Origin: Streptococcus himalayensis
GTDB taxonomy: Bacteria; Bacillota; Bacilli; Lactobacillales; Streptococcaceae
Length of the DNA stretch: 64,000 bases
NCBI RefSeq assembly: GCF_001708305.1
Contig: NZ_CP016953.1
Coordinates: 1 to 64,000 of the forward strand
Direction of reading: 5' to 3'
The position numbers and the translations under genes are program-made. The first letter of the stretch is position 1. Each line of letters opens with the position of its first letter. The notes beneath the pieces are model-generated. The model saw only the letters and a program-made list of their open reading frames with translations. It made no database searches and was not told the DNA's origin. Below are positions 3,926 to 27,162 of the stretch, in pieces.

Positions 3926-5438
3926 ATGGAAGAGTTATTAGCCATTATTAAACAACAAGCAGCTGTTAACCAACAACTCACAAATGAACTTGCTCTCCTT
4001 CGTGAACAAGTAGCTTATCTGACACAAAAGCTCTATGGCAAGTCATCAGAAAAGGTTGTGCATCAAACTGGTCAGCTAAGTCTCTTTGAAGAAGAACCAC
4101 TTCCTGAAGAAGACGCTGACTTACCCAGTTGAAACAGAGACCATCACCTACAAACGCAAGAAAACCAAGGGAATTCGTCAGGCTGTTTTCAGTCAGTTTA
4201 CTCCAGAGATGGTTCATCATGAACTAAAAGGCGAAGACTGCACTTGTCCAGACTGTCACGGTCAGTTGAAAGAGATTGGTTCAACCGTCCAACGTCAAGA
4301 ATTAATCTTTATTCCTGCGCAATTGAAGCGGATTGATCATGTCCAACATGCTTACAAATGTCAGGCGTGTAGCGAGAAGAATCTTAGTGATAAGATTGTC
4401 AAAGCTCCCGTCCCTAAAGCCCCTTTAGCACATAGCTTTGGGTCAGCCTCCATCATCGCTCATACGATTCATCAGAAATTCAATCTCAAGGTTCCCAACT
4501 ACCGCCAAGAAGAGGATTGGAACAAGCTTGGCTTGCCAATCACACGGAAGGAAATCGCCAATTGGCACATCAAGTCTAGTCAGTATTATTTCGAGCCGAT
4601 TTATGACCTTCTGCACGAGAAATTACTAGAACAGCCTGTTCTCCATGCGGATGAGACTTCTTACAGGGTCTTGGAAAATGATAGCCAGTTGACCTATTAT
4701 TGGACCTTCCTGTCTGGCAAGCATGAAGAACAGGGAATCACTCTTTATCATCACGATAAAGGGCGGAGTGGCTTGGTTGTGAAGGAGTTTCTTAGAGACT
4801 ATAATGGCTATGTACATTGTGATATGTGGTCTGCCTATAGGCAGTTAGAACAAGCTCAGTTAGTTGGTTGTTGGGCACATGTCAGAAGAAAGTTCTTCGA
4901 GGCGACGCCTAAAAAGGCAGACAGGACTTCCTTGGGTGCTAAGGGATTAGCCTATTGCGACCGTCTATTTGCCTTGGAGAATGATTGGGCAGATTTGTCT
5001 AGCGAGGAGCGACTACATAAACGCCAGACAGAGTTAGCCCCTTTGATGGATGAGTTCTTCGACTGGTGCCGCAATCAATCTATTTTACCTGGATCAAAAC
5101 TTGGTCGTGCGATAGAGTATAGCCTTAAGTATGAAGAACTATTCAAGGCAGTTCTTCAAGATGGCCGCTTGGTTCTATCCAACAATGTAGCAGAACGCGC
5201 TATTAAGTCCTTGGTCATGGGACGGAAAAATTGGTTGTTTTCCCAAAGTTTTGAGGGAGCTGAAGCAACTGCCATTATCCTGAGTTTACTGGAGACAGCT
5301 AAGAGGCATGGGCTTGATTCAGAGAAATACATCACTTATCTTCTGGAACATCTTCCAAACGAGGAGTCACTCGCAAAAAAGGAGGTTCTAGAGGCTTATT
5401 TACCGTGGACTGAACGAATTCAGAACAACTGCAAATAG
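3926..5438 (+). pseudogene. tnpC: IS66 transposase TnpC, split by a frameshift
   Basis: The 5' frame starts at ATG 3926 (GGAGGGTGAGACT upstream) and gives an N-terminal coiled coil typical of IS66 transposases (LAIIKQQAAVNQQLTNEL, LREQVAYLTQKLYGKSSE), then stops at 4130-4132. The rest continues in the next frame from about 4115 to TAG 5438. It has a CxxC zinc site (CTCPDCHG), DDE residues in VLHADETSY, YVHCDMWSAY and NNVAERAIKSL, and the usual IS66 C-terminus. One extra base near GACTTACCCAGTTGA (4118-4132) explains the break. I see no slippery heptamer that would make it programmed. Confidence 0.85.
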
Positions 5439-11700: not shown

Positions 11701-14700
11701 AGTATCGTTATCCTTAGCTGTCCAAGGAGTAGATTCAATCACTTCCCCTGTTACCTTGTTCACGGTTACAGAACGAGTGAAGGTTACAGAGTCTGTCGCG
11801 TCTTTGGCAAGGGTATCTCCACTATCTTTTTCCTTATAGTGGATGGTTTGCGTAATGACTTTGTTCAAGCCATCTTGACCTGTCTCAGCTGGCCACTTAG
11901 GTCCTTCTGGATAGTCAGGGTTAATTGGCTTGGTTGGATCCTTAGGATCTGTCGGTGGTACCGTTACTTTGCCTGGTTTCAAGCGAACTTCGAAGTTTTG
12001 AGAAACAGTTGTTCCATCATCTACTGTATCGAAGGTCAAGCCATCTGCTGGGAAGTCGTTGCTTACAAGCTCATAGCCTTTCTTCTTATAGTCTTCAATC
12101 GTTGCTTGAGGACTGTAAGGGCTCTTCGCACCAGTCTTACCTGCTAGATCTTCATGGCTCAACTCAGTGTTTCCATTACCGTCTAGACCTGTATCGATGA
12201 AGGTTACTTTAGCTTTTTGATCACCAGCGTTGTAAGTAACTGTGACTTCACGATTTTTCGCGTCTGCCGTGATGTTTTCTTCTGCGGCAACAACGGCTTT
12301 GTCAGGAGTGTACCCTGCAATAGTTGGAGACGTTACAGCGTCAAACGTTGTGTCCTCATTGTCCGCTACCCAATCACCGTAAGTAACAGTTTTATCTACC
12401 AAGTCAACAGTCGCATTGCGCTTGAAGGTCAAGGTTTCTGTGACATCCTTCGCTGCTTCTCTACCATCTGCGTATTTGTAATGAATGGTACGAGTAACAG
12501 TTTTCACCAATTCTTTCTTATCAGTGACACCATTTGGCCATTCTGGGTTGTCAGATGGTGGAACTACCTGTGTACCATGTTTCAAGTGAACTTCAAATGT
12601 TTGTGAAGCACCTTTCTCATCATCAACTGCATCGAATACTACACCAGTTGCTGGATAGTTATCTGATACGAGAACATAACCTTGAGCAGTCAATTTATCA
12701 ATCGTTGGTTTTGTACGATAGTCACTTGTTTGATCTGTCTTACCTGTTAGATCTTCATGGCTCAACTCAGTGTTTCCTTTACCGTCTAGACCTGTATCGA
12801 TGAAGGTTACTTTAGCTTTTTGATCGTTAGCCTCATACGTGATTGGCGTATCTTTACCTGGATCTTTTGGCGTTGGTGGCGTATAGCCTGCCTCTGGATT
12901 CTTTGGATCTGCCGGAGTCAATGGTTGACCATCTGGATCTTGTGGGGTATATCCTGGGACATACGGAATCGTAACCGTTGGCTCACCTGGAACCGTTGGC
13001 TTCTCTGGTGTTGGATCTGGATATGGAAGCGGAGTTGGTTTTTCCTCACCTGGTTTGTTTGGTACCCAGCTTGCTAGTTTGCCATAGTAAACGGTGTGTT
13101 CAATATTTGAACTTGTTTCTGTTAAACCAGTGACTGCTTCAATCTCCGCGTCGTCCGCCTTCACAAGGTAATGACCAGAAACTACTGGAGACGTTACAGC
13201 GTCAAACGTAGTATCGTTATCCTTAGCTGTCCAAGGAGTAGATTCAATCACTTCCCCTGTTACCTTGTTCACGGTTACAGAACGAGTGAAGGTTACAGAG
13301 TCTGTCGCGTCTTTGGCAAGGGTATCTCCACTATCTTTTTCCTTATAGTGGATGGTTTGCGTAATGACTTTGTTCAAGCCATCTTGACCTGTCTCAGCTG
13401 GCCACTTAGGTCCTTCTGGATAGTCAGGGTTAATTGGCTTGGTTGGATCCTTAGGATCTGTCGGTGGTACCGTTACTTTGCCTGGTTTCAAGCGAACTTC
13501 GAAGTTTTGAGAAACAGTTGTTCCATCATCTACTGTATCGAAGGTCAAGCCATCTGCTGGGAAGTCGTTGCTTACAAGCTCATAGCCTTTCTTCTTATAG
13601 TCTTCAATCGTTGCTTGAGGACTGTAAGGGCTCTTCGCACCAGTCTTACCTGCTAGATCTTCATGGCTCAACTCAGTGTTTCCATTACCGTCTAGACCTG
13701 TATCGATGAAGGTTACTTTAGCTTTTTGATCACCAGCGTTGTAAGTAACTGTGACTTCACGATTTTTCGCGTCTGCCGTGATGTTTTCTTCTGCGGCAAC
13801 AACGGCTTTGTCAGGAGTGTACCCTGCAATAGTTGGAGACGTTACAGCGTCAAACGTTGTGTCCTCATTGTCCGCTACCCAATCACCGTAAGTAACAGTT
13901 TTATCTACCAAGTCAACAGTCGCATTGCGCTTGAAGGTCAAGGTTTCTGTGACATCCTTCGCTGCTTCTCTACCATCTGCGTATTTGTAATGAATGGTAC
14001 GAGTAACAGTTTTCACCAATTCTTTCTTATCAGTGACACCATTTGGCCATTCTGGGTTGTCAGATGGTGGAACTACCTGTGTACCATGTTTCAAGTGAAC
14101 TTCAAATGTTTGTGAAGCACCTTTCTCATCATCAACTGCATCGAATACTACACCAGTTGCTGGATAGTTATCTGATACGAGAACATAACCTTGAGCAGTC
14201 AATTTATCAATCGTTGGTTTTGTACGATAGTCACTTGTTTGATCTGTCTTACCTGTTAGATCTTCATGGCTCAACTCAGTGTTTCCTTTACCGTCTAGAC
14301 CTGTATCGATGAAGGTTACTTTAGCTTTTTGATCGTTAGCCTCATACGTGATTGGCGTATCTTTACCTGGATCTTTTGGCGTTGGTGGCGTATAGCCTGC
14401 CTCTGGATTCTTTGGATCTGCCGGAGTCAATGGTTGACCATCTGGATCTTGTGGGGTATATCCTGGGACATACGGAATCGTAACCGTTGGCTCACCTGGA
14501 ACCGTTGGTTTCTCTGGTGTTGGATCTGGATATGGAAGCGGAGTTGGTTTTTCCTCACCTGGTTTGTTTGGTACCCAGCTTGCTAGTTTGCCATAGTAAA
14601 CGGTGTGTTCAATATTTGAACTTGTTTCTGTTAAACCAGTAACTTCTTCAATCACCGCGTCGTCCGCCTTCACAAGGTAATGACCAGAAACTACTGGAGA

Positions 14701-17700
14701 CGTTACAGCGTCAAACGTAGTATCGTTATCCTTAGCTGTCCAAGGAGTAGATTCAATCACTTCCCCTGTTACCTTGTTCACGGTTACAGAACGAGTGAAG
14801 GTTACAGAGTCTGTCGCGTCTTTGGCAAGGGTATCTCCACTATCTTTTTCCTTATAGTGGATGGTTTGCGTAATGACTTTGTTCAAGCCATCTTGACCTG
14901 TCTCAGCTGGCCACTTAGGTCCTTCTGGGAAGCCAGGGTTGATTGGCTCACCTGGGGTCTTAGGAGCTGTCGGTGGCACTTCTTCCGTACCTTGTTTAAG
15001 GGTAACGACGAAGTTTTGATCCACAGCTGAATCATTGTCGAATTTCTCTTTACCATCTGTGAAGGTATTAGATACTAGGACATAACCCTTATCTGTATAC
15101 TCTTTAATCTTATCGGCAGTTGTATACGGGATAAGATCACCAGATTTACCTGACTTGGACTCAACGGCAAGGTTTTTACCAGTTGTTTGATCAACGTAGG
15201 TAATCGTTGCCTTTTGGTCATCTGCCACATACGTAATGACCGTATTTTCACCTGGATCTTTTGGCGTTGGTGGTGTATAGCCGCCTGCTGGATTCTTTGG
15301 ATCCGCCGGAGTCAATGGTTGACCATCTGGATCTTGTGGGGTATATCCTGGGACATACGGAATCGTAACCGTTGGCTCACCTGGAACCGTTGGTTTCTCT
15401 GGTGTTGGATCTGGATATGGAAGCGGAGTTGGTTTTTCCTCACCTGGTTTGTTTGGTACCCAGCTTGCTAGTTTGCCATAGTAAACGGTGTGTTCAATAT
15501 TTGAACTTGTTTCTGTTAAACCAGTAACTTCTTCAATCACCGCGTCGTCCGCCTTCACAAGGTAATGACCAGAAACTACTGGAGACGTTACAGCGTCAAA
15601 CGTAGTATCGTTATCCTTAGCTGTCCAAGGAGTAGATTCAATCACTTCCCCTGTTACCTTGTTCACGGTTACAGAACGAGTGAAGGTTACAGAGTCTGTC
15701 GCGTCTTTGGCAAGGGTATCTCCACTATCTTTTTCCTTATAGTGGATGGTTTGCGTAATGACTTTGTTCAAGCCATCTTGACCTGTCTCAGCTGGCCACT
15801 TAGGTCCTTCTGGGAAGCCAGGGTTAATTGGCTCACCTGGGGTCTTAGGAGCTGTCGGTGGCACTTCTTCCGTACCTTGTTTAAGGGTAACGACGAAGTT
15901 TTGATCCGCAGCTGAATCATTGTCGAATTTCTCTTTACCATCCGTGAAGGTATTAGATACTAGGACATAACCCTTATCTGTATACTCTTTAATCTTATCG
16001 GCAGTTGTATACGGGATAGGATCACCAGATTTACCTGACTTGGACTCAACGGCAAGGTTTTTACCAGTTGTTTGATCAACGTAGGTAATTGTTGCCTTTT
16101 GGTCATCTGCCACATACGTAATGACCGTATTTTCACCTGGATCTTTTGGCGTTGGTGGCGTATAGCCTGCCTCTGGATTCTTTGGATCTGCCGGAGTCAA
16201 TGGTTGACCATCTGGATCTTGTGGGGTATATCCTGGGACATACGGAATCGTAACCGTTGGCTCACCTGGAACCGTTGGCTTCTCTGGTGTTGGATCTGGA
16301 TATGGAAGCGGAGTTGGTTTTTCCTCACCTGGTTTGTTTGGTACCCAGCTTGCTAGTTTGCCATAGTAAACGGTGTGTTCAATATTTGAACTTGTTTCTG
16401 TTAAACCAGTGACTGCTTCAATCTCCGCGTCGTCCGCCTTCACAAGGTAATGACCAGAAACTACTGGAGACGTTACAGCGTCAAACGTAGTATCGTTATC
16501 CTTAGCTGTCCAAGGAGTAGATTCAATCACTTCCCCTGTTACCTTGTTCACGGTTACAGAACGAGTGAAGGTTACAGAGTCTGTCGCGTCTTTGGCAAGG
16601 GTATCTCCACTATCTTTTTCCTTATAGTGGATGGTTTGCGTAATGACTTTGTTCAAGCCATCTTGACCTGTCTCAGCTGGCCACTTAGGTCCTTCTGGAT
16701 AGTCAGGGTTAATTGGCTTGGTTGGATCCTTAGGATCTGTCGGTGGTACCGTTACTTTGCCTGGTTTCAAGCGAACTTCGAAGTTTTGAGAAACAGTTGT
16801 TCCATCATCTACTGTATCGAAGGTCAAGCCATCTGCTGGGAAGTCGTTGCTTACAAGCTCATAGCCTTTCTTCTTATAGTCTTCAATCGTTGCTTGAGGA
16901 CTGTAAGGGCTCTTCGCACCAGTCTTACCTGCTAGATCTTCATGGCTCAACTCAGTGTTTCCATTACCGTCTAGACCTGTATCGATGAAGGTTACTTTAG
17001 CTTTTTGATCACCAGCGTTGTAAGTAACTGTGACTTCACGATTTTTCGCGTCTGCCGTGATGTTTTCTTCTGCGGCAACAACGGCTTTGTCAGGAGTGTA
17101 CCCTGCAATAGTTGGAGACGTTACAGCGTCAAACGTTGTGTCCTCATTGTCCGCTACCCAATCACCGTAAGTAACAGTTTTATCTACCAAGTCAACAGTC
17201 GCATTGCGCTTGAAGGTCAAGGTTTCTGTGACATCCTTCGCTGCTTCTCTACCATCTGCGTATTTGTAATGAATGGTACGAGTAACAGTTTTCACCAATT
17301 CTTTCTTATCAGTGACACCATTTGGCCATTCTGGGTTGTCAGATGGTGGAACTACCTGTGTACCATGTTTCAAGTGAACTTCAAATGTTTGTGAAGCACC
17401 TTTCTCATCATCAACTGCATCGAATACTACACCAGTTGCTGGATAGTTATCTGATACGAGAACATAACCTTGAGCAGTCAATTTATCAATCGTTGGTTTT
17501 GTACGATAGTCACTTGTTTGATCTGTCTTACCTGTTAGATCTTCATGGCTCAACTCAGTGTTTCCTTTACCGTCTAGACCTGTATCGATGAAGGTTACTT
17601 TAGCTTTTTGATCGTTAGCCTCATACGTGATTGGCGTATCTTTACCTGGATCTTTTGGCGTTGGTGGCGTATAGCCTGCCTCTGGATTCTTTGGATCTGC

Positions 17701-20700
17701 CGGAGTCAATGGTTGACCATCTGGATCTTGTGGGGTATATCCTGGGACATACGGAATCGTAACCGTTGGCTCACCTGGAACCGTTGGCTTCTCTGGTGTT
17801 GGATCTGGATATGGAAGCGGAGTTGGTTTTTCCTCACCTGGTTTGTTTGGTACCCAGCTTGCTAGTTTGCCATAGTAAACGGTGTGTTCAATATTTGAAC
17901 TTGTTTCTGTTAAACCAGTGACTGCTTCAATCTCCGCGTCGTCCGCCTTCACAAGGTAATGACCAGAAACTACTGGAGACGTTACAGCGTCAAACGTAGT
18001 ATCGTTATCCTTAGCTGTCCAAGGAGTAGATTCAATCACTTCCCCTGTTACCTTGTTCACGGTTACAGAACGAGTGAAGGTTACAGAGTCTGTCGCGTCT
18101 TTGGCAAGGGTATCTCCACTATCTTTTTCCTTATAGTGGATGGTTTGCGTAATGACTTTGTTCAAGCCATCTTGACCTGTCTCAGCTGGCCACTTAGGTC
18201 CTTCTGGATAGTCAGGGTTAATTGGCTTGGTTGGATCCTTAGGATCTGTCGGTGGTACCGTTACTTTGCCTGGTTTCAAGCGAACTTCGAAGTTTTGAGA
18301 AACAGTTGTTCCATCATCTACTGTATCGAAGGTCAAGCCATCTGCTGGGAAGTCGTTGCTTACAAGCTCATAGCCTTTCTTCTTATAGTCTTCAATCGTT
18401 GCTTGAGGACTGTAAGGGCTCTTCGCACCAGTCTTACCTGCTAGATCTTCATGGCTCAACTCAGTGTTTCCATTACCGTCTAGACCTGTATCGATGAAGG
18501 TTACTTTAGCTTTTTGATCACCAGCGTTGTAAGTAACTGTGACTTCACGATTTTTCGCGTCTGCCGTGATGTTTTCTTCTGCGGCAACAACGGCTTTGTC
18601 AGGAGTGTACCCTGCAATAGTTGGAGACGTTACAGCGTCAAACGTTGTGTCCTCATTGTCCGCTACCCAATCACCGTAAGTAACAGTTTTATCTACCAAG
18701 TCAACAGTCGCATTGCGCTTGAAGGTCAAGGTTTCTGTGACATCCTTCGCTGCTTCTCTACCATCTGCGTATTTGTAATGAATGGTACGAGTAACAGTTT
18801 TCACCAATTCTTTCTTATCAGTGACACCATTTGGCCATTCTGGGTTGTCAGATGGTGGAACTACCTGTGTACCATGTTTCAAGTGAACTTCAAATGTTTG
18901 TGAAGCACCTTTCTCATCATCAACTGCATCGAATACTACACCAGTTGCTGGATAGTTATCTGATACGAGAACATAACCTTGAGCAGTCAATTTATCAATC
19001 GTTGGTTTTGTACGATAGTCACTTGTTTGATCTGTCTTACCTGTTAGATCTTCATGGCTCAACTCAGTGTTTCCTTTACCGTCTAGACCTGTATCGATGA
19101 AGGTTACTTTAGCTTTTTGATCGTTAGCCTCATACGTGATTGGCGTATCTTTACCTGGATCTTTTGGCGTTGGTGGCGTATAGCCTGCCTCTGGATTCTT
19201 TGGATCTGCCGGAGTCAATGGTTGACCATCTGGATCTTGTGGGGTATATCCTGGGACATACGGAATCGTAACCGTTGGCTCACCTGGAACCGTTGGCTTC
19301 TCTGGTGTTGGATCTGGATATGGAAGCGGAGTTGGTTTTTCCTCACCTGGTTTGTTTGGTACCCAGCTTGCTAGTTTGCCATAGTAAACGGTGTGTTCAA
19401 TATTTGAACTTGTTTCTGTTAAACCAGTGACTGCTTCAATCTCCGCGTCGTCCGCCTTCACAAGGTAATGACCAGAAACTACTGGAGACGTTACAGCGTC
19501 AAACGTAGTATCGTTATCCTTAGCTGTCCAAGGAGTAGATTCAATCACTTCCCCTGTTACCTTGTTCACGGTTACAGAACGAGTGAAGGTTACAGAGTCT
19601 GTCGCGTCTTTGGCAAGGGTATCTCCACTATCTTTTTCCTTATAGTGGATGGTTTGCGTAATGACTTTGTTCAAGCCATCTTGACCTGTCTCAGCTGGCC
19701 ACTTAGGTCCTTCTGGATAGTCAGGGTTAATTGGCTTGGTTGGATCCTTAGGATCTGTCGGTGGTACCGTTACTTTGCCTGGTTTCAAGCGAACTTCGAA
19801 GTTTTGAGAAACAGTTGTTCCATCATCTACTGTATCGAAGGTCAAGCCATCTGCTGGGAAGTCGTTGCTTACAAGCTCATAGCCTTTCTTCTTATAGTCT
19901 TCAATCGTTGCTTGAGGACTGTAAGGGCTCTTCGCACCAGTCTTACCTGCTAGATCTTCATGGCTCAACTCAGTGTTTCCATTACCGTCTAGACCTGTAT
20001 CGATGAAGGTTACTTTAGCTTTTTGATCACCAGCGTTGTAAGTAACTGTGACTTCACGATTTTTCGCGTCTGCCGTGATGTTTTCTTCTGCGGCAACAAC
20101 GGCTTTGTCAGGAGTGTACCCTGCAATAGTTGGAGACGTTACAGCGTCAAACGTTGTGTCCTCATTGTCCGCTACCCAATCACCGTAAGTAACAGTTTTA
20201 TCTACCAAGTCAACAGTCGCATTGCGCTTGAAGGTCAAGGTTTCTGTGACATCCTTCGCTGCTTCTCTACCATCTGCGTATTTGTAATGAATGGTACGAG
20301 TAACAGTTTTCACCAATTCTTTCTTATCAGTGACACCATTTGGCCATTCTGGGTTGTCAGATGGTGGAACTACCTGTGTACCATGTTTCAAGTGAACTTC
20401 AAATGTTTGTGAAGCACCTTTCTCATCATCAACTGCATCGAATACTACACCAGTTGCTGGATAGTTATCTGATACGAGAACATAACCTTGAGCAGTCAAT
20501 TTATCAATCGTTGGTTTTGTACGATAGTCACTTGTTTGATCTGTCTTACCAGGCACATTTTTTACTTCGATGTTCTTTTTAGCGGTATCATCGATGAAGG
20601 TTACGGTCGCTTTTTGATTGTTAGCCTCATACGTGATTGGCGTATCTTGACTTGGATCATTTGGAATTGCTGGAGGGTTGAAGCCTTGAGTTGGATCTCC

Positions 20701-23700
20701 AGGAACTTTTGGAGTTAAAGCGCCACCTGGACCTTGTGGGGTATATCCAGGGATATTTGGAATAATTCCTTCTTCTGGCGTTCCAGGTTTTGTCGGATCC
20801 GTTGGATGATTTGGATATTGGATAGGATCTTTAGGTTCCTTTCCAGCCGGCACCTTTGGAACCCAGCTTCCTAGTTTCGTATAGTAAACGGTTTCCTCTA
20901 TATCCTGACTATTTTCTGTCAAGTTCGTCTTTTCAGGAACTTCGCCCTTATCCGCTAGATAGCCGGCAAGTTTCGGACTCGTAATAGCGTCAAACGTAGT
21001 ATCGCCATCCTTAGCTGTCCAGTCTGTATACGTTATCTTCTTGGTAACAAGGTTAACTTTAGCAGAACGTTCAAATGTGACTTTATCTGACCGATCTGGA
21101 CTTGCTTGTCTATTGTCCGCTTTAAACTTGTAGTGAACAACCCTGTTAATATCTTTAACCAACTGTTGTTTATCTGCTTCTTTAACACCTTCTGGCCACT
21201 CTGGGGTTTCAGAAGGTGGAACAGTCACAACTTTTTGACGAAGCTTAACCACATAATCTTGAGAGATGGTAGTATCATCATTTATACTATCATAATAGGT
21301 AATCCCCTTAGGAAATCCATCCGATACAAGTTCATAACCTTGGCTCTCGTAATTTGAAATCTCATCGGTAGTTGTATACTTGATAGGATCACCAGATTTA
21401 CCTTTTACCTCATCTGTTTTTAAGGGAGTAGTTCCCTGACCATCTTCTCCTACATTAATATAGGTGATACGAGCCTTTTGTTCTTTCTTATAAACGACAA
21501 CTGTCTCATAATTATTGGTAAAACCAGTATTTGAGTAATTATTGAAATAGCTATCAGAAATGATTGTATTCCCATTTTCATCTTGGGTTGTGACTGTATC
21601 TGTAATGACCGCATTGGTCAATACAGCCGTGACCGTCTCTGCATCTGCTCCAGTTTTAATATTTGGGACATTTGAGGTAAGAATACTTGGTGAGTACCCT
21701 TTAAGGTCTTTAACTTTATGGTCCTTATCGAAAGCAGATTTAGGAGAAGCAACACTATCATAAGTATTCGTTGTATTGTCTGTACCAGTCACCAGCCAGC
21801 CAGTATCGGCAATCCCATCTCCATTAACATCTTTGACGATATAGCGAGCTTTCTTATAGGCTGCAAGGAAATCATCTCCATTATCAACGATACTTCCTTC
21901 GAGCGTATTAAGGAATCGTGCAAGGTCAATCCCAGCTTCAATCTTTCTTGTCCAGTCTGATTTTTGAACAACAACCAATGGTTTCCCATCTTCCCCTAAA
22001 ACAGGTGTTCCATCTTCATAGACATAGCGGATTGTATTGGTATGTTGTGCAACTGGAGCGATAACTGTACCATTTGAAATCCAAATGTTTTGACGGTTAC
22101 TGTTAACCGGATCAATTCCGTAGTCCGGATCGTTTACTAATACACTTCCTGCAGAAGAAAGGGTAGGATCAGAAAGGGCATTCGATGGTTGGATTTCAGG
22201 TCTAGCACCTGGTAGGAATCCAGCAACTGGTAGTGCACCACTTTGAATATTGGTCCAAACAGAACTTACTTTAGTTTTTTGGTCCTTATTGTCCAAATTC
22301 AAAGAGTAAACTGTATAAGTCCCATTCGTCACACCTTCTGGTCCGTTGAACTCAATTTTAGCGCCATCGGCTTTAGTTTTAGCGCTCACATAAAGAATAT
22401 TCCCATGTGGAATTTTTTCCGGATTATTTCCTTGAGGGATTTCAGGAGGAAGGTGTCCCTCAATAGCTCCAGCAGAAATCCCTGATGATTTCGTATAACG
22501 AAGAAGAGAGACGTAGGCTGGATTATTAAACTGGAAGGTCACATCCTTAGAGCCACCCAACGGAACTGAAATCAACTCTGCATAGTAGTTGGTATTATCG
22601 TCCCGGATGTCAACAATGGAACCTTCATTAGCTTTAAATAGCGGTACTGGCTTTCTTTCTACTTTTCGTGAGTCTAGAGAGATAACATCATCCCAGTCAT
22701 TATCTCCACGATTGTCCATCTGAACACGGAAGGTTGCAAACGCATCAACAGTCAATGTTCCGTCTTCATCTACACCGATATAGTTATATCCATCAAACGC
22801 TCCAGATGGCCCAGGAAATTCTCTACTTTTTCCTTTCCCATCAGAATGGAAGGTATTAACTGAGTTTTTTCCAAAGAAGATATGAGAGTCGTCTCCAAGC
22901 TCAAGCGCTACACCACGACCCTGATTTTCAAAGCGAACTTTAGATTTTTCTCCAGATGTAAATCTTGCATTGTGGCCAGTGATGATTCCATCACGTCCTG
23001 TAAAGTTAAAGGTAGCTCCCTCTCCAATAGAGATGATTGCTGAGGAATCTTTAACTTTACTTATACCCCTAGCTCCATAGCCGCCAAAACGATCAGCTGG
23101 TGTTATAGCGTCATCAGGACGTTTTACACCGATAGAAATCCCTTGACCAATACTTGTATTTAGATTCAAAGTAGAATTTTTACCAGTGATTACTTGACCA
23201 TCTGTAGGCATGAAAATACCAGCATTATGGTAGCGGATAGGATCTTTAGCTCCTGTGGTATTCATATTGATGGTCAAGGACGCAGCATCTTTGACTTCAA
23301 CCTTGCTACCGTTTGGAAGATTGATCCCATCACCGCTAGGAGAACGACTAATAGTCAAGGACGCACCTTCAGAAACCGTCACTGAAGAAGCATCATGAAT
23401 ATTTGCTTCACGACGTTCACGGTTATGGACCGTTTCTGCGGCGGCTGTAGTCGCAGTTCCTACATTTTTTTGGACATATTGGACTTGACCTGTTTTAGTT
23501 GTGTATGATTCACTGACAGTTGACGTAGTATTTCCTTTAATAACAACTGCTGTGTCACCTCCACCTCCATAAAGAGAGGAACCGTTAGCCGTTACATTGT
23601 TAAAGGTCACCGTATTTTGACCCGATGTATGTGTTAGGTTCAAAGCACCTTTTGAGTTAGCGGTATTTAGCGCTACATCTTTGAAGGTAATATCCCAAGA

Positions 23701-24708
23701 ATCTGAGCCGTTGGGCGTCAAGGTAAAGGAACGCAAATCTAAGGTGTGATTTCCACCATCAATCAACAAACCATGACCTGTTGCATTAAGTGTTAATGTG
23801 CGGTCAACACTGGCAGGTCTATTCCGAATGGAACCAGTATCCACTCCATTAGAATTCCCATTAGTAACATTTGCATCAGCAAGAACTCCTGGGCGAACTC
23901 CTGTAGAAGCGTTATCTGGAGCAACAATATCTCCTGCTAATTTAATCGTTCCTACATTTCCATCTGCAAATGCTTGTAAGAATTCTGCCCAGCTAGAGAC
24001 AGTTGCTTCTGTCTGAGCACGTTCAGCAGCAAAAAAGCGTGCTCCTGAAACCTCTGTATTTCGAGTTGCTAATTTATTTTCTAAGACAGGTGTAGCAGTA
24101 CTAGTTTCATCAAGAGATGATTTTGTCTCCAGATTAAGAGTAGTTGCTGAAGCGTCTATAGTCACACTACGATTAGCTGGTTCAGATTTTTCTTCAACCT
24201 TTTCTTTGGACGTTACTTCAGCTGTCTCTGTTTTTTTCTCAGCTACCGGCTTTTGGTTATTTTCAGCTTTTTCTTTACTAGAAGAGGTTGTTTTTTCTAC
24301 TGATTTACGAACCTCAGCTGTATTTTCTGTTTTTTTCTTTTCATCAACAATAGGCGTTTCAGATTTTTCTTGAACTTTTTCTTCAACCTTTTCTTCAACT
24401 ACCTCCTCTGTTGATAATTCAGGAACCGTTTCTTCAACATCAGCAGATTGCGTCGTTGATTGTACTGTTTCTGTTTTTGAATCTTTTGACACCTCATCCT
24501 CTGTCGTACTCGAAGAGGTTGTCAAAGAAATCTGATCAGATTCTACACTAGTGCTTGAATCTGCAGAAACTGGTGCTTGTGCACCCCAAAAAAGACTGGC
24601 ACCGATAATGGCAGAAGCGACACCTTGATTAAATTTTCGAATTGAAAACGTAAAGCGCTTATCTGCACACTGTTCGTTGCGAACTTTTCGGTTGTTTTTT
24701 CCAACCAT
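5773..24708 (-). CDS. Giant YSIRK/LPxTG mucin-binding-type repeat adhesin (6311 residues)
   Basis: The start ATG 24708 has TAGGAGG upstream. Residues 1-49 are a YSIRK-type signal peptide (FSIRK at 21-25, FNQGVASAIIGASLF), followed by a Ser/Thr/Glu/Lys-rich stalk to about 230. Residues about 238-890 are a beta-helix-like domain (WAEFLQAFADGNVGTIKLAGD and many short Asn/Gly turns), resembling the pectate-lyase-like adhesive domain of streptococcal surface proteins. From about 1078, MucBP-like units (KATVTFIDDT...) alternate with Muc_B2-like units (TIHYK...DTTFDAVTSP) and proline-rich linkers, 18 highly repeated Muc_B2 units in all. A Pro-rich wall segment, LPNTG at 6275-6279, a hydrophobic span and the tail KKKSENED form a sortase A anchor. 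The inferred role is adhesion to host mucus glycans. The promoter contains a G9 tract, so expression may phase-vary. Copy numbers need long-read support. Confidence 0.9.
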   Translation of the reverse strand: MVGKNNRKVRNEQCADKRFTFSIRKFNQGVASAIIGASLFWGAQAPVSADSSTSVESDQISLTTSSSTTEDEVSKDSKTETVQSTTQSADVEETVPELSTEEVVEEKVEEKVQEKSETPIVDEKKKTENTAEVRKSVEKTTSSSKEKAENNQKPVAEKKTETAEVTSKEKVEEKSEPANRSVTIDASATTLNLETKSSLDETSTATPVLENKLATRNTEVSGARFFAAERAQTEATVSSWAEFLQAFADGNVGTIKLAGDIVAPDNASTGVRPGVLADANVTNGNSNGVDTGSIRNRPASVDRTLTLNATGHGLLIDGGNHTLDLRSFTLTPNGSDSWDITFKDVALNTANSKGALNLTHTSGQNTVTFNNVTANGSSLYGGGGDTAVVIKGNTTSTVSESYTTKTGQVQYVQKNVGTATTAAAETVHNRERREANIHDASSVTVSEGASLTISRSPSGDGINLPNGSKVEVKDAASLTINMNTTGAKDPIRYHNAGIFMPTDGQVITGKNSTLNLNTSIGQGISIGVKRPDDAITPADRFGGYGARGISKVKDSSAIISIGEGATFNFTGRDGIITGHNARFTSGEKSKVRFENQGRGVALELGDDSHIFFGKNSVNTFHSDGKGKSREFPGPSGAFDGYNYIGVDEDGTLTVDAFATFRVQMDNRGDNDWDDVISLDSRKVERKPVPLFKANEGSIVDIRDDNTNYYAELISVPLGGSKDVTFQFNNPAYVSLLRYTKSSGISAGAIEGHLPPEIPQGNNPEKIPHGNILYVSAKTKADGAKIEFNGPEGVTNGTYTVYSLNLDNKDQKTKVSSVWTNIQSGALPVAGFLPGARPEIQPSNALSDPTLSSAGSVLVNDPDYGIDPVNSNRQNIWISNGTVIAPVAQHTNTIRYVYEDGTPVLGEDGKPLVVVQKSDWTRKIEAGIDLARFLNTLEGSIVDNGDDFLAAYKKARYIVKDVNGDGIADTGWLVTGTDNTTNTYDSVASPKSAFDKDHKVKDLKGYSPSILTSNVPNIKTGADAETVTAVLTNAVITDTVTTQDENGNTIISDSYFNNYSNTGFTNNYETVVVYKKEQKARITYINVGEDGQGTTPLKTDEVKGKSGDPIKYTTTDEISNYESQGYELVSDGFPKGITYYDSINDDTTISQDYVVKLRQKVVTVPPSETPEWPEGVKEADKQQLVKDINRVVHYKFKADNRQASPDRSDKVTFERSAKVNLVTKKITYTDWTAKDGDTTFDAITSPKLAGYLADKGEVPEKTNLTENSQDIEETVYYTKLGSWVPKVPAGKEPKDPIQYPNHPTDPTKPGTPEEGIIPNIPGYTPQGPGGALTPKVPGDPTQGFNPPAIPNDPSQDTPITYEANNQKATVTFIDDTAKKNIEVKNVPGKTDQTSDYRTKPTIDKLTAQGYVLVSDNYPATGVVFDAVDDEKGASQTFEVHLKHGTQVVPPSDNPEWPNGVTDKKELVKTVTRTIHYKYADGREAAKDVTETLTFKRNATVDLVDKTVTYGDWVADNEDTTFDAVTSPTIAGYTPDKAVVAAEENITADAKNREVTVTYNAGDQKAKVTFIDTGLDGNGNTELSHEDLAGKTGAKSPYSPQATIEDYKKKGYELVSNDFPADGLTFDTVDDGTTVSQNFEVRLKPGKVTVPPTDPKDPTKPINPDYPEGPKWPAETGQDGLNKVITQTIHYKEKDSGDTLAKDATDSVTFTRSVTVNKVTGEVIESTPWTAKDNDTTFDAVTSPVVSGHYLVKADDAEIEAVTGLTETSSNIEHTVYYGKLASWVPNKPGEEKPTPLPYPDPTPEKPTVPGEPTVTIPYVPGYTPQDPDGQPLTPADPKNPEAGYTPPTPKDPGKDTPITYEANDQKAKVTFIDTGLDGKGNTELSHEDLTGKTDQTSDYRTKPTIDKLTAQGYVLVSDNYPATGVVFDAVDDEKGASQTFEVHLKHGTQVVPPSDNPEWPNGVTDKKELVKTVTRTIHYKYADGREAAKDVTETLTFKRNATVDLVDKTVTYGDWVADNEDTTFDAVTSPTIAGYTPDKAVVAAEENITADAKNREVTVTYNAGDQKAKVTFIDTGLDGNGNTELSHEDLAGKTGAKSPYSPQATIEDYKKKGYELVSNDFPADGLTFDTVDDGTTVSQNFEVRLKPGKVTVPPTDPKDPTKPINPDYPEGPKWPAETGQDGLNKVITQTIHYKEKDSGDTLAKDATDSVTFTRSVTVNKVTGEVIESTPWTAKDNDTTFDAVTSPVVSGHYLVKADDAEIEAVTGLTETSSNIEHTVYYGKLASWVPNKPGEEKPTPLPYPDPTPEKPTVPGEPTVTIPYVPGYTPQDPDGQPLTPADPKNPEAGYTPPTPKDPGKDTPITYEANDQKAKVTFIDTGLDGKGNTELSHEDLTGKTDQTSDYRTKPTIDKLTAQGYVLVSDNYPATGVVFDAVDDEKGASQTFEVHLKHGTQVVPPSDNPEWPNGVTDKKELVKTVTRTIHYKYADGREAAKDVTETLTFKRNATVDLVDKTVTYGDWVADNEDTTFDAVTSPTIAGYTPDKAVVAAEENITADAKNREVTVTYNAGDQKAKVTFIDTGLDGNGNTELSHEDLAGKTGAKSPYSPQATIEDYKKKGYELVSNDFPADGLTFDTVDDGTTVSQNFEVRLKPGKVTVPPTDPKDPTKPINPDYPEGPKWPAETGQDGLNKVITQTIHYKEKDSGDTLAKDATDSVTFTRSVTVNKVTGEVIESTPWTAKDNDTTFDAVTSPVVSGHYLVKADDAEIEAVTGLTETSSNIEHTVYYGKLASWVPNKPGEEKPTPLPYPDPTPEKPTVPGEPTVTIPYVPGYTPQDPDGQPLTPADPKNPEAGYTPPTPKDPGENTVITYVADDQKATITYVDQTTGKNLAVESKSGKSGDPIPYTTADKIKEYTDKGYVLVSNTFTDGKEKFDNDSAADQNFVVTLKQGTEEVPPTAPKTPGEPINPGFPEGPKWPAETGQDGLNKVITQTIHYKEKDSGDTLAKDATDSVTFTRSVTVNKVTGEVIESTPWTAKDNDTTFDAVTSPVVSGHYLVKADDAVIEEVTGLTETSSNIEHTVYYGKLASWVPNKPGEEKPTPLPYPDPTPEKPTVPGEPTVTIPYVPGYTPQDPDGQPLTPADPKNPAGGYTPPTPKDPGENTVITYVADDQKATITYVDQTTGKNLAVESKSGKSGDLIPYTTADKIKEYTDKGYVLVSNTFTDGKEKFDNDSAVDQNFVVTLKQGTEEVPPTAPKTPGEPINPGFPEGPKWPAETGQDGLNKVITQTIHYKEKDSGDTLAKDATDSVTFTRSVTVNKVTGEVIESTPWTAKDNDTTFDAVTSPVVSGHYLVKADDAVIEEVTGLTETSSNIEHTVYYGKLASWVPNKPGEEKPTPLPYPDPTPEKPTVPGEPTVTIPYVPGYTPQDPDGQPLTPADPKNPEAGYTPPTPKDPGKDTPITYEANDQKAKVTFIDTGLDGKGNTELSHEDLTGKTDQTSDYRTKPTIDKLTAQGYVLVSDNYPATGVVFDAVDDEKGASQTFEVHLKHGTQVVPPSDNPEWPNGVTDKKELVKTVTRTIHYKYADGREAAKDVTETLTFKRNATVDLVDKTVTYGDWVADNEDTTFDAVTSPTIAGYTPDKAVVAAEENITADAKNREVTVTYNAGDQKAKVTFIDTGLDGNGNTELSHEDLAGKTGAKSPYSPQATIEDYKKKGYELVSNDFPADGLTFDTVDDGTTVSQNFEVRLKPGKVTVPPTDPKDPTKPINPDYPEGPKWPAETGQDGLNKVITQTIHYKEKDSGDTLAKDATDSVTFTRSVTVNKVTGEVIESTPWTAKDNDTTFDAVTSPVVSGHYLVKADDAEIEAVTGLTETSSNIEHTVYYGKLASWVPNKPGEEKPTPLPYPDPTPEKPTVPGEPTVTIPYVPGYTPQDPDGQPLTPADPKNPEAGYTPPTPKDPGKDTPITYEANDQKAKVTFIDTGLDGKGNTELSHEDLTGKTDQTSDYRTKPTIDKLTAQGYVLVSDNYPATGVVFDAVDDEKGASQTFEVHLKHGTQVVPPSDNPEWPNGVTDKKELVKTVTRTIHYKYADGREAAKDVTETLTFKRNATVDLVDKTVTYGDWVADNEDTTFDAVTSPTIAGYTPDKAVVAAEENITADAKNREVTVTYNAGDQKAKVTFIDTGLDGNGNTELSHEDLAGKTGAKSPYSPQATIEDYKKKGYELVSNDFPADGLTFDTVDDGTTVSQNFEVRLKPGKVTVPPTDPKDPTKPINPDYPEGPKWPAETGQDGLNKVITQTIHYKEKDSGDTLAKDATDSVTFTRSVTVNKVTGEVIESTPWTAKDNDTTFDAVTSPVVSGHYLVKADDAEIEAVTGLTETSSNIEHTVYYGKLASWVPNKPGEEKPTPLPYPDPTPEKPTVPGEPTVTIPYVPGYTPQDPDGQPLTPADPKNPEAGYTPPTPKDPGENTVITYVADDQKATITYVDQTTGKNLAVESKSGKSGDPIPYTTADKIKEYTDKGYVLVSNTFTDGKEKFDNDSAADQNFVVTLKQGTEEVPPTAPKTPGEPINPGFPEGPKWPAETGQDGLNKVITQTIHYKEKDSGDTLAKDATDSVTFTRSVTVNKVTGEVIESTPWTAKDNDTTFDAVTSPVVSGHYLVKADDAEIEAVTGLTETSSNIEHTVYYGKLASWVPNKPGEEKPTPLPYPDPTPENPTVPGEPTVTIPYVPGYTPQDPDGQPLTPADPKNPEAGYTPPTPKDPGENTVITYVADDQKATITYVDQTTGKNLAVESKSGKSGDPIPYTTADKIKEYTDKGYVLVSNTFTDGKEKFDNDSAADQNFVVTLKQGTEEVPPTAPKTPGEPINPGFPEGPKWPAETGQDGLNKVITQTIHYKEKDSGDTLAKDATDSVTFTRSVTVNKVTGEVIESTPWTAKDNDTTFDAVTSPVVSGHYLVKADDAVIEEVTGLTETSSNIEHTVYYGKLASWVPNKPGEEKPTPLPYPDPTPEKPTVPGEPTVTIPYVPGYTPQDPDGQPLTPADPKNPAGGYTPPTPKDPGENTVITYVADDQKATITYVDQTTGKNLAVESKSGKSGDLIPYTTADKIKEYTDKGYVLVSNTFTDGKEKFDNDSAVDQNFVVTLKQGTEEVPPTAPKTPGEPINPGFPEGPKWPAETGQDGLNKVITQTIHYKEKDSGDTLAKDATDSVTFTRSVTVNKVTGEVIESTPWTAKDNDTTFDAVTSPVVSGHYLVKADDAVIEEVTGLTETSSNIEHTVYYGKLASWVPNKPGEEKPTPLPYPDPTPEKPTVPGEPTVTIPYVPGYTPQDPDGQPLTPADPKNPAGGYTPPTPKDPGENTVITYVADDQKATITYVDQTTGKNLAVESKSGKSGDLIPYTTADKIKEYTDKGYVLVSNTFTDGKEKFDNDSAVDQNFVVTLKQGTEEVPPTAPKTPGEPINPGFPEGPKWPAETGQDGLNKVITQTIHYKEKDSGDTLAKDATDSVTFTRSVTVNKVTGEVIESTPWTAKDNDTTFDAVTSPVVSGHYLVKADDAVIEEVTGLTETSSNIEHTVYYGKLASWVPNKPGEEKPTPLPYPDPTPEKPTVPGEPTVTIPYVPGYTPQDPDGQPLTPADPKNPAGGYTPPTPKDPGENTVITYVADDQKATITYVDQTTGKNLAVESKSGKSGDPIPYTTADKIKEYTDKGYVLVSNTFTDGKEKFDNDSAADQNFVVTLKQGTEEVPPTAPKTPGEPINPGFPEGPKWPAETGKDGLNKVITQTIHYKEKDSGDTLAKDATDSVTFTRSVTVNKVTGEVIESTPWTAKDNDTTFDAVTSPVVSGHYLVKADDAEIEAVTGLTETSSNIEHTVYYGKLASWVPNKPGEEKPTPLPYPDPTPENPTVPGEPTVTIPYVPGYTPQDPDGQPLTPADPKNPEAGYTPPTPKDPGENTVITYVADDQKATITYVDQTTGKNLAVESKSGKSGDPIPYTTADKIKEYTDKGYVLVSNTFTDGKEKFDNDSAADQNFVVTLKQGTEEVPPTAPKTPGEPINPGFPEGPKWPAETGQDGLNKVITQTIHYKEKDSGDTLAKDATDSVTFTRSVTVNKVTGEVIESTPWTAKDNDTTFDAVTSPVVSGHYLVKADDAVIEEVTGLTETSSNIEHTVYYGKLANWVPNKPGEEKPTPLPYPDPTPENPTVPGKPTVTIPYVPGYTPQDPDGQPLTPVDPNDPSKGYIPPVPKNPGENTHIPYVPNEPTVPEGKLVPSKPIPEKPAKPAEPAKEMTPPYMKQGTEELPNTGDATGQSGMVYGAAALGLTALLAAVKKKSENED
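6352..11661 (-). repeat. Six consecutive 885-bp short modules (C-terminal array)
   Basis: The same landmark recurs at 6352, 7237, 8122, 9007, 9892, 10777 and 11662, exactly 885 bp apart. The copies landmarked 8122 and 9007 share all sampled variants (AVIEE, SGDLIPY, AVDQNF, PAGG) and look like the youngest duplicates. The most C-terminal copy is the most diverged (LANWVPN, VPGKP). Confidence 0.9.
11662..14679 (-). repeat. Two consecutive 1509-bp long modules
   Basis: Landmarks at 11662, 13171 and 14680 are 1509 bp apart. Each module contains one L-type and one S-type Muc_B2 unit. The two modules appear almost identical at the DNA level. Confidence 0.9.
14680..16449 (-). repeat. Two 885-bp short modules interrupting the long-module arrays
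   Basis: Landmarks at 14680, 15565 and 16450 are 885 bp apart. Both copies are of the AVIEE type. Their position between two long-module arrays indicates that a composite block was duplicated by unequal exchange. Confidence 0.85.
16450..20540 (-). repeat. Three 1509-bp long modules (N-terminal array)
   Basis: Landmarks at 16450, 17959 and 19468 are 1509 bp apart. The third, most N-terminal, module runs to about 20540, where it grades into a diverged MucBP-like unit (DDTAKKNIEVKNVPG). The modules are nearly identical to those at 11662-14679. Confidence 0.85.
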
Positions 24709-24743
24709 AAATATATTTCCTCCTAGGCTTGCGCCGTCATATA

Positions 24744-24769
24744 CATTAGCAACAAAAGCATTGCTAATG
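24744..24769 (-). promoter_or_regulatory. Perfect 9-bp stem-loop in the adhesin mRNA leader
   Basis: CATTAGCAA and TTGCTAATG are separated by eight bases, 36 bp upstream of the start codon within a predicted 5' leader of about 155 nt. It has no T-run, so it is not a terminator. It could stabilise the mRNA or tune translation; this is inference. Confidence 0.5.
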
Positions 24770-24870
24770 CACTATCTTCTATTTTTTCCAGTGTCCATTC
24801 CTCTGATATTGAACAGAGTATGAAAAGACATGGAAATATTTTCTGGGTATTATGAAAACACCCATTCTAT

Positions 24871-24898
24871 ATGATACCCCCCCCCTCGGTTTTGTCAA
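24871..24898 (-). promoter_or_regulatory. Adhesin promoter with G9 tract in the -35/-10 spacer
   Basis: On the minus strand, TTGACA (24893-24898) matches the -35 consensus and TATCAT (24871-24876) is a fair -10 box. The 16-bp spacer between them ends in nine consecutive G (24877-24885 as C on plus). One extra G would give the optimal 17-bp spacing. Upstream (24900-24935) is an A/T-rich stretch like an UP element. Homopolymer slippage here would change promoter strength, as known for porA of Neisseria meningitidis. Confidence 0.75.
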
Positions 24899-25151
24899 GT
24901 ACTTTTAATATATTATTTTTATTTTTTTAGTTTAAATTTAGACAAAGTTTAATTTATTGTCTAAAAAATGAGGTTTTAGCTATTTCAATATAGCATAATG
25001 TGCTCCTGCAAAGAATCTACTCTTTATCCATGCTTACCCGTGCTCATACAAATAAGCAACAAAATCACTTGAATTCTAAATAATGGCTTGAAAATATAGA
25101 GATACACCGCATGTTTGTTACCAGTAAGCTTTGACCTATGCTCTCTACCAG

Positions 25152-25259
25152 TACTCTATAAAGCTCAAAATTCGACTAGGTAACACCTCCTGATAGAACT
25201 GGAGTTCAACAAGATGAGTTAACGATGTCAGATTTTGATTTTGGTTGACTATAATACTC
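25152..25259 (-). repeat. MITE-like intergenic element, short copy (108 bp)
   Basis: Read on the minus strand it starts GAGTATTATAGTCAACC and contains ATCTGACATCGTTAACTCA, which is identical to the copy at 42975 over this stretch. It ends TTTATAGAGTAC, like the copy at 28827. The middle (about 110 bp) present in the other two copies is missing. Confidence 0.6.
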
Positions 25260-25261
25260 CT

Positions 25262-25378
25262 GTAATTTCAAAAATATAAATTTTATATATGCATGTTTAT
25301 GTTGTCACAAAGTGAAATAAACCAAGTATGTCAAACAGGATGCTTTTTTAGCAGATGAAAAGTACAGTCATAAAAAAT
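25262..25378 (-). repeat. Intergenic repeat family R2, copy 1
   Basis: Read on the minus strand it aligns end to end with 32946-33055. It shares TACTTTTCATCTGCTAAAA at one end and TATTTTTGAAATTAC at the other, with the same overall length and a diverged middle. It directly abuts the MITE-like element. Confidence 0.6.
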
Positions 25379-25485
25379 AAGTAGTTTACGTCCGAACCAT
25401 CTAAGAAAGTCGCACAAATGCTAACTTTGATTTCAGATGAGTCTAAGGTGAATAGCTCGCCCTCTATCTATGTTTTTTGACAAAC

Positions 25486-25527
25486 AAAAAAACTGAAACA
25501 GACAAGGCTAATAGCTGTCTGTCTCAA
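25486..25527 (-). terminator. Terminator of the MurJ/YtgP gene
   Basis: On the minus strand, GAGACAGAC pairs with GTCTGTTTC around the loop AGCTATTAGCCTT, followed by a run of seven T. It begins six bases after the stop codon. Confidence 0.8.
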
Positions 25528-25533
25528 TCTTTT

Positions 25534-27162
25534 TTATGGAATATGCAATTTTTGGCGGAGACTTTCTGCTCTAGCACCTAAAAATTTATCAAGCAAGCGT
25601 GTCAAAAGTCCCAGGTAAAAATAGGTTACAACTCCAATTCCACCAACCAGAGTAAGATAAATCAAATTAAGCAAGCGTCCTTGCGAATGAAAGACAAATC
25701 CTAATAGGAATTGGGCTAGATAAACAGCCACTGCCATCATTCCAGTCAACATCAAAGCTAACAAACTTCGTCTCAAGATAATGTTTGAGCGCAATTTGGT
25801 CACGCGCTGAATATGTCGATACATCAATACAATCGGAACGAGCAAGCCTACAGTCGTTGAAAGCAGAGGCCCATACGCTTGAAACAGAAAAATCATCGGA
25901 GCTTGCAAGGCCACCTTTAGCAAGAATCCATAGACAAAATAGAGCACGGCTTTCCGATTTTGAAACAAGGATTGAATCATCGGCGAAAGCACCATATACC
26001 CTCCCAATAGAAGGGTCTGGGAAACAGCAAAGATAAATAAACCTAAAGCCAAGGAATCAGCTTCTCCATAAAAAACTGTGTATAGTGGTTTTGCCAAGAG
26101 AATCGATCCGACCGTAGCTGGAATTAAAAAGGCCATGAGCATACTCAAATTATCTTGTATCAATTTGACGACAGCTGGTCGATCTCCTTTAATATAGTTG
26201 GCTGTTAGAAGGGGGATTCCCACCCCTCCAATAGAAGTTGCCACAGCAATCAAAATCATCGTAATTTTATTAGGGTTGGCTGAAAAATAACTAAACATAA
26301 TCACTAATTCTGATTTACTATAATCGGTCAAATCCTGCATAAATTTAATAAAAGTCATTTGATCAATGATTTGGAATAACTGAATAGCTGAGCCTGTGAT
26401 AATAAAAGGAATGGCTTCCCGAAGGGTATCCCATAACAAGGCTTTACTATCAATCTTTTCTTTCTTACTTGACTTTTTCAAAATAGCAGCCAACATATCC
26501 GCTTGCCATAAAAAGTAAAGCAAGACAAGCATACTCGCAATCATTCCGATAAAAGCTGCAAAGGTCGATTGGGTCACAGCTTCCACATAATTTTTCGAAC
26601 CCAAATTCATGATGAGATAAGCTGTTACCAACATCCAAATCACTCGCACCACTTGTTCGGCAATCTGGCTGACCGCAAAGGGTTTTAAATCATTGAAACC
26701 TTGAAAAAATCCACGGATAACACTCATCACAGGAAATACAAGAACTGCCCAAGATAAGCTCCTCATGACAGGAATGAGATCTTTTCCAACACCAGACATT
26801 TCTGCAAATAAGGGAGAACCGAGATACATCCCTATCGCAAAAACAAGGCCTAAGATGAGCATCAAGTTGATAAATTCTCTCACTAGGATAAAACTATGCT
26901 CTCGCTCTTCTTTGGCATTGTATTTTGCCACTTGCTTTGCAATAGCAACTGGAATCCCTGCTGTGGAAACCAGAAGAAACCAAGCATAGATGTTATATCC
27001 CATCGTAAACAAGCCGTTTGCCTCAGCAGCATGAGGCTGCATCCAGATATACCAAGGGATAATATAAATCGCTCCCAGTAAACGACTGATAAAATTACTA
27101 ATTGTTAACCAAGCCGTTCCACGGAGCATCTGCTCCTGCTGACTTGTTTCTTTTTCTTTCAT
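25534..27162 (-). CDS. murJ: Lipid II flippase of the MurJ/YtgP (MOP superfamily, SpoVB-like) type
   Basis: A 542-residue protein almost entirely of hydrophobic helices (about 14). The N-terminal segment LRGTAWLTISNFISRLLGAIYIIPW is followed by helices typical of the polysaccharide transporter/MATE-like MOP superfamily. In S. pneumoniae the gene beside and divergent from murE encodes YtgP, shown to be the MurJ-type flippase that moves lipid-linked peptidoglycan precursor across the membrane. The same arrangement is seen here, and this decides the name over a capsule-export flippase. Start ATG 27162 has AGAGGT upstream. The promoter shares its -35 region with murE on the opposite strand. Confidence 0.85.
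   Translation of the reverse strand: MKEKETSQQEQMLRGTAWLTISNFISRLLGAIYIIPWYIWMQPHAAEANGLFTMGYNIYAWFLLVSTAGIPVAIAKQVAKYNAKEEREHSFILVREFINLMLILGLVFAIGMYLGSPLFAEMSGVGKDLIPVMRSLSWAVLVFPVMSVIRGFFQGFNDLKPFAVSQIAEQVVRVIWMLVTAYLIMNLGSKNYVEAVTQSTFAAFIGMIASMLVLLYFLWQADMLAAILKKSSKKEKIDSKALLWDTLREAIPFIITGSAIQLFQIIDQMTFIKFMQDLTDYSKSELVIMFSYFSANPNKITMILIAVATSIGGVGIPLLTANYIKGDRPAVVKLIQDNLSMLMAFLIPATVGSILLAKPLYTVFYGEADSLALGLFIFAVSQTLLLGGYMVLSPMIQSLFQNRKAVLYFVYGFLLKVALQAPMIFLFQAYGPLLSTTVGLLVPIVLMYRHIQRVTKLRSNIILRRSLLALMLTGMMAVAVYLAQFLLGFVFHSQGRLLNLIYLTLVGGIGVVTYFYLGLLTRLLDKFLGARAESLRQKLHIP

Follow-up and report, generated by a model that had tools for sequence, protein, structure and literature searches.

A putative phase-variable promoter with a nine-G spacer before a giant adhesin gene of Streptococcus himalayensis, and similar layouts across the genus

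Introduction

Can slippage of a run of nine G residues, set between the -35 and -10 hexamers of a promoter, change the amount of a giant streptococcal surface protein? Poly-G contingency loci are textbook material in Neisseria, Helicobacter and Campylobacter, and the promoter spacer of porA in Neisseria meningitidis carries a poly-G run. For streptococci, discussion has centred mostly on DNA inversions, coding repeats and single cases.

The locus considered here lies in a 64-kb stretch at the start of the single 2,275,471-base contig of the Streptococcus himalayensis genome (the window: the whole 64,000 nucleotides that were analysed). To judge from its sequence, the adhesin promoter is quite probably a contingency (phase-variable) promoter of the porA kind, in which slippage of the G9 run would change the spacing of -35 and -10. 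This reading is supported by (i) the anatomy of the promoter, (ii) the recurrence of the layout, (iii) a strand-specific coupling of G tracts to -10 and -35 hexamers, (iv) the placement of tracts before surface genes, and (v) the divergence of tract length at other loci.

The adhesin gene and its promoter

The main features of the locus are as follows, each with the analysis from which it derives.

5773 to 24708, minus strand: giant wall-anchored adhesin, 6311 aa (open frame; Pfam)
24709 to 24870, minus strand: leader region up to the start codon (fold z-score -5.4)
24724 to 24719, minus strand: ribosome binding site AGGAGG (sequence)
24871 to 24876, minus strand: -10 hexamer TATCAT (promoter scan)
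24877 to 24885, minus strand: G9 tract that ends the 16-nt spacer next to the -10 hexamer (sequence)
24892 to 24877, minus strand: spacer AAACCGAGGGGGGGGG, 16 nt (sequence)
24893 to 24898, minus strand: -35 hexamer TTGACA (sequence and promoter scan)
24937 to 24965, no strand assigned: 8-bp perfect inverted repeat TTTAGACA-13-TGTCTAAA (sequence)

The gene product has the make-up of a YSIRK/LPXTG wall-anchored adhesin, with PF04650, PF20585, PF17965, PF17966 and PF00746 all above cut-off. In a Pfam search of the termini only, the first 999 residues match a YSIRK signal plus a Pectate_lyase_5 domain, and the last 999 match MucBP_2/Muc_B2 repeats with an LPXTG anchor. Direct repeats of 1509 nt, successive copies of which are up to 100% identical, lie in the gene and probably give rise to size variation as well as assembly error; a tandem-repeat scan of 5000-25600 returned one row, within the adhesin gene. 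An IS66-family transposase gene (4086-5438, plus strand) adjoins the 3' end, and the upstream neighbour (25534-27162) shares the orientation of the adhesin gene.

Direct reading of the minus strand confirms the coordinates and letters that the first-pass annotation had given for the -35 hexamer, the G9 spacer and the -10 hexamer. At 24898-24871 the -35 match is perfect and the -10 match is 5/6, so that TTGACA/TATCAT, at 11/12, is the top scorer among nine promoter-like pairs in a scan of 23500-26000; nine pairs is little above the number found in shuffles (mean 6.8, sd 1.9). Further weak promoter-like pairs are present in the 825-nt intergenic region before the adhesin gene. As in porA, a long homopolymer sits between -35 and -10, here in the form TTGACA, 16 nt containing G9, TATCAT.

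The inverted repeat at 24937-24965, with arms 13 nt apart, is found ~40 nt upstream of the -35 hexamer and, by its sequence, is a possible regulator site. A search with the upstream DNA for a conserved regulator site gave short matches in 20 other genomes; since these are mostly A/T-rich (query positions 22-48, AAATTTAAACTAAAAAAATAAAAATAA) or poly-G promoter regions, they provide no evidence of an operator, and the idea of a conserved upstream site was rejected. Plasmid records searched with the locus gave no match.

Apart from the G9 tract, no G or C run in the window reaches 8 nt. Judged on the window by itself, a G8+ run is unremarkable, as two or more overlapping matches occur in 21 of 100 dinucleotide shuffles. 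The run is thus only mildly unusual at this scale, and the case rests on comparison with the genome and the genus. The shuffles, taken alone, favour the idea that a chance G run fell between chance hexamers; the related idea of an assembly artefact gains from the point, made in the available part of a study of Bifidobacterium, that assembled G counts can err (PMC9187656).

Long G tracts in the genome

The adhesin promoter is not an isolated case: the same genome has nine further tracts of G9 or more, mostly before YSIRK-type genes. Five G runs in the genome are exactly 7 long and ten are at least 9 long, with no run of exactly 8; a rough independent-base model with the GC content of the window leads one to expect 54 of length 7, 11.5 of length 8 and 3.1 of length 9 or more. 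Run lengths are bimodal. The ten tracts, of lengths G9, G10, G11, G10, G10, G9, G10, G9, G11 and G18, have the following settings.

24.9 kb: upstream of the giant YSIRK adhesin gene; -10 at 0-4 nt
328.6 kb: upstream of a YSIRK-type gene; reads C on the gene strand
427.5 kb: 218 nt before a Bac_transf sugar transferase gene
569.9 kb: upstream of a YSIRK-like gene (by eye, with no Pfam YSIRK match); -10 at 0-4 nt
1334.1 kb: upstream of a YSIRK-type gene
1357.6 kb: upstream of a YSIRK-type gene
1398.8 kb: 585 nt from the start codon of a YSIRK-type gene
1768.9 kb: upstream of a YSIRK-type gene; -10 at 0-4 nt
1850.4 kb: before a glycosyltransferase-YSIRK gene pair; -10 at 0-4 nt
2173.2 kb (G18): 28 nt before an MFS transporter gene; -10 at 0-4 nt

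YSIRK-type wall-protein genes follow seven of the ten, with the start codon 73-168 nt away except for the 585 nt at 1398.8 kb. At 1850.4 kb the first gene of the pair codes for a glycosyltransferase of 482 aa that has a GtfA-type domain, and the stop codon of that gene is 14 nt before the ATG of the YSIRK gene. Open frames of at least 100 aa contain none of the nine other tracts; the G18 tract overlaps a frame of 87 aa. On the coding strand of the gene that it precedes, the tract is G in nine of the ten cases and C only at 328.6 kb. Pfam identifies 15 YSIRK genes in the genome; six of them are preceded by a tract at no more than 700 nt, the other nine by none, an association with a binomial p of 2e-12 under uniform placement.

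The bimodal run lengths and the clustering before YSIRK genes both tell against an ordinary fixed promoter, in which the G run would be a stable spacer whose length has no function. Homologous adhesin genes do manage without a tract, as such a promoter would allow: the upstream DNA examined for 16 N-terminal homologues (L025-L040, 32-61% identity) contains no G or C run of 6 or more. A fixed promoter is on this evidence improbable.

A -10 hexamer stands 0-4 nt 3' of the run at five of the ten tracts and is missing at the other five, so that a change of spacer cannot account for all tracts of this genome.

The layout across Streptococcus and beyond

The genus was sampled with 284 Streptococcus genomes, one per species and including the present one, and the pattern TTGACA-N0-9-G7+-N0-9-TATNAT permitted spacers of 7-25 nt. 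It occurs at 24 sites in 22 of the 284 genomes, the present one among them, whereas the pattern read backwards and its poly-C version each occur in 0/284. Those empty controls weigh heavily against a chance run between chance hexamers, which, like an artefact, is strongly disfavoured and can be given hardly any credence. Despite the width permitted, the spacers at the 24 sites straddle the usual 17-nt optimum, ranging over 15 nt (three sites), 16 (two), 17 (five), 18 (two), 19 (three), 20 (six), 21 (two) and 22 (one). The genes behind them, named by eye from their N-termini, include those for YSIRK, pilin-like and antigen I/II-like proteins, with a few capsule-type, metabolic or unknown. A simpler layout, G8 followed directly by TATNAT, is found at 39 sites in 29/284 genomes, with none in the backwards control.

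Among other Lactobacillales, the pattern was found in 1/235 genomes (G382) and its backwards control likewise in 1/235 (G466); since the control is equally frequent, the pattern is at chance level in this sample outside the genus. The difference between 22/284 and 1/235 has a Fisher p of 1.7e-5. G9+ tracts of any kind are present in 120/284 Streptococcus genomes, so that more than half of the genomes in the genus sample have none.

Beyond the Lactobacillales a scan for existence only, giving no frequencies and with the spacer of the pattern held to 16 nt or less, found at least 126 sites in at least 120 stretches among various Bacilli, Clostridia and other genomes. By a simple rule, not a validated predictor, 64 of these sites have a signal-peptide-like product within 250 nt, 22 another product and 40 none. 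Some Bacilli metagenome-assembled genomes (MAGs) from rabbit gut, for example Lapin-016__bin44, Lapin-012__bin22 and Lapin-014__bin22, have several TTGACA-N-G8-TATNAT sites each (L080, L091, L121, L134, L147 and other loci). Systems of poly-G promoters may thus be extensive among certain uncultured Firmicutes.

Tracts selected by run length alone

A promoter-blind sample was assembled from G9+ tracts chosen by the run alone, giving 118 tracts, or 102 after dereplication. It draws on 119 of at least 150 rows for the genus (two rows share one region, of which one tract was kept), and omits 14 rows from the outlier genome G065, a contig-edge row from G096, a short-contig row (G048:C30) and 15 rows after G103; the tract list comprises the first places per genome, among the matches listed. 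The outlier carries 28 G9+ tracts, several of them bunched within 150 nt at G065:C1 ~1513568-1513713, and stands outside the counts.

A -10 hexamer (at least 5/6) lies 0-4 nt 3' of the run in 44/102 tracts, compared with 5/102 on the opposite strand and 16/408 control windows. This strand-specific coupling, 44 vs 5 of 102, is a second obstacle for a chance origin. The -35 hexamer behaves in the same way: among the 44 tracts with a -10, a -35 (at least 5/6) is placed at 14-24 nt in 28, of which 19 are exact, and four windows further upstream yield 5, 6, 2 and 4 of 44. Where the -10 is missing, a -35 at 14-24 nt is found in 6/58. In 33 of the 44 tracts with a -10, a C immediately precedes the run.

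By simple rules for signal peptides and ribosome sites, which are not validated predictors, the 44 tracts with a -10 precede 12 YSIRK, 16 signal-peptide-like and 10 other genes, while four have no gene within 300 nt and two no ribosome site. The corresponding figures for the 58 tracts without a -10 are 10 YSIRK, 4 signal-peptide-like, 8 other, 23 with no gene and 13 without a ribosome site. Since 58 of the 102 tracts lack a nearby -10, and YSIRK genes nevertheless follow 10 of them, a change of spacer is not the sole mode of action.

The tract at the adhesin gene might itself be phase-variable and yet act otherwise, by shifting an upstream regulator site (for example the repeat at 24937-24965) or by serving another promoter, as in nadA or R28. 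The missing -10 at half of the tracts in this genome and the inverted repeat upstream of the adhesin promoter point this way. So do six G11-G13 tracts in G015 (L325-L330), 128-129 nt from the starts of secreted-like proteins; these lie on the opposite strand, as poly-C on the gene strand, and their lengths differ between copies. At L372, L390, L394 and L404, G15-G20 tracts lie between a divergent Rgg-like gene (by eye) and another gene. Set against this, a perfect -35 and a 5/6 -10 bracket the run exactly at the adhesin locus, an arrangement enriched genus-wide on one strand only, which makes another mode of action unlikely here.

The tracts at L372, L390, L394 and L404, ~94 nt from the start of the Rgg-like gene, possibly form a different class in which the tract belongs to a regulator region. 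Long G tracts at L341 and L393 lie inside open frames that by eye resemble type I restriction specificity subunits, possibly phase-variable restriction systems.

Divergence of tract length

Grouping 161 distinct G7+ tracts by their flanks (at least 75% alike, ungapped) gave 11 clusters of two or more members. Identical sequences were merged beforehand, so that the members of a cluster must differ somewhere. Run length differs in 11/11 clusters. The comparisons run across species or among paralogues, none of them within a clone, and may include assembly errors in long G runs. In two genomes with identical printed flanks, TTGACAAAAGCATTTC-Gn-TATAAT, the run is G10 in one and G8 in the other; further clusters show G14/G15, G9/G10/G9, and G10/G16 in two nearby copies of one genome. 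About five of the 11 are of the spacer type by eye. Such differences between matching flanks are hard to square with a fixed promoter.

The first-pass annotation had proposed a phase-variable promoter, and the proposal is strengthened by a layout that recurs genus-wide at surface genes and by lengths that differ between near-identical flanks at other loci.

The leader RNA

The ATG of the adhesin gene, at 24708, follows the -10 hexamer by 162 nt, which gives a leader of ~155 nt if transcription starts ~7 nt below it. The leader RNA is strongly structured (z -5.4), none of 200 shuffles being equally stable. The predicted fold has a 13-bp hairpin around 24772-24741 and pairs two of the six AGGAGG bases, the GG with a segment near 24839-24832. 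An Rfam search of the leader returned no match at E up to 1. With the leader so structured and part of its ribosome site paired in the predicted fold, control after transcription is also possible.

A proposed mechanism of surface switching

Under the preferred reading of a phase-variable promoter, replication slippage at the G9 run would add or remove G residues. The altered G count would change the distance from -35 to -10, which is 16 nt here. The changed spacing would set the strength of a promoter of the sigma-70 type, with transcription starting ~7 nt below TATCAT, and through it the amount of giant adhesin. The assembled G9, with its 16-nt spacer, may stand for an on, a reduced or an off state; the first-pass annotation had suggested a lowered one, with G10 stronger. 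The G count of a single assembly, moreover, need not be that of the population.

The ten tracts, most of them before wall-protein genes and the rest before a glycosyltransferase-adhesin pair, a sugar transferase gene and a transporter gene, would constitute a multi-locus poly-G system. With many tracts in the genome and in the genus, clonal cells would show differing combinations at their surface. The balance of evidence leans towards streptococci possessing a poly-G phasome built into promoters, in which ten probably hypermutable tracts give each cell a random surface combination. TTGACA, a few bases and then G9+ directly before TATAAT is an order of elements met ahead of unrelated surface genes in many species of the genus, and combinatorial surface switching would then be a general Streptococcus trait. 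If true, a genus-wide system of this kind would explain within-clone variation in adhesion and antigenicity, and it bears on the choice of surface antigens.

Comparison with known systems

Van der Ende is said to have reported in 1995 that variation of the -10/-35 spacing of porA alters expression of this surface protein in N. meningitidis. A poly-G spacer before a surface-protein gene is common to porA and the adhesin promoter. The porA product is a Gram-negative outer-membrane porin, whereas here the product is a sortase-anchored Streptococcus adhesin, and many similar sites occur in one genome and across the genus. In group B Streptococcus, Puopolo and Madoff reportedly found in 2003 that expression of the alpha C protein gene is controlled by short repeats lying upstream of it. 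This too is a case of upstream short repeats at a streptococcal surface protein, with a repeat unit and layout that differ from the G tract.

Among the best matches by title or abstract in the open-access literature, which may miss subscription papers, there is no streptococcal promoter with a poly-G spacer. The first-pass annotation had named no well-described example of the layout at a streptococcal wall protein; for poly-G spacers nothing among those matches contradicts this, but a variable T homopolymer upstream of R28 that sets transcript level is published (PMC7098570). That T-tract is the nearest streptococcal case found. According to the available part of the article, an upstream homopolymer of 9, 10 or 11 T gives different transcript levels of Spy1336/R28-Spy1337 in S. 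pyogenes; it lies between divergent genes and changes the spacing of ATTTTT repeats (PMC7098570). In both systems a homopolymer, variable in length at R28 and putatively so here, precedes the gene of an LPXTG wall protein in a streptococcus; they differ in the base, T rather than G, and in position, as that part of the article does not describe the R28 tract as lying between -35 and -10 (PMC7098570). At the adhesin locus the tract is of G and the upstream gene is on the same strand, not divergent.

The accessible text on nadA of N. meningitidis describes a repeat tract upstream of an adhesin gene that tunes transcription, acting through flanking NadR operators and not through a -35/-10 spacer (PMC2791445). 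In the sortase-dependent pilus genes of Bifidobacterium breve, the portion at hand reports G-run slippage with mixed lengths in populations, and notes that annotated lengths can misstate a population (PMC9187656). There, as would be the case here, slippage of a G run switches a wall-anchored surface structure of a Gram-positive bacterium, but the B. breve tract is in coding sequence and acts by frameshift, whereas the present one is in a promoter (PMC9187656). A change from 8C to 7C is reported, in the section available, for the poly-C tract of mga in group A Streptococcus; this resembles the present case as a streptococcal G/C homopolymer whose slippage affects a surface protein, and differs in that the mga tract lies inside the coding sequence of a regulator (PMC11868660).
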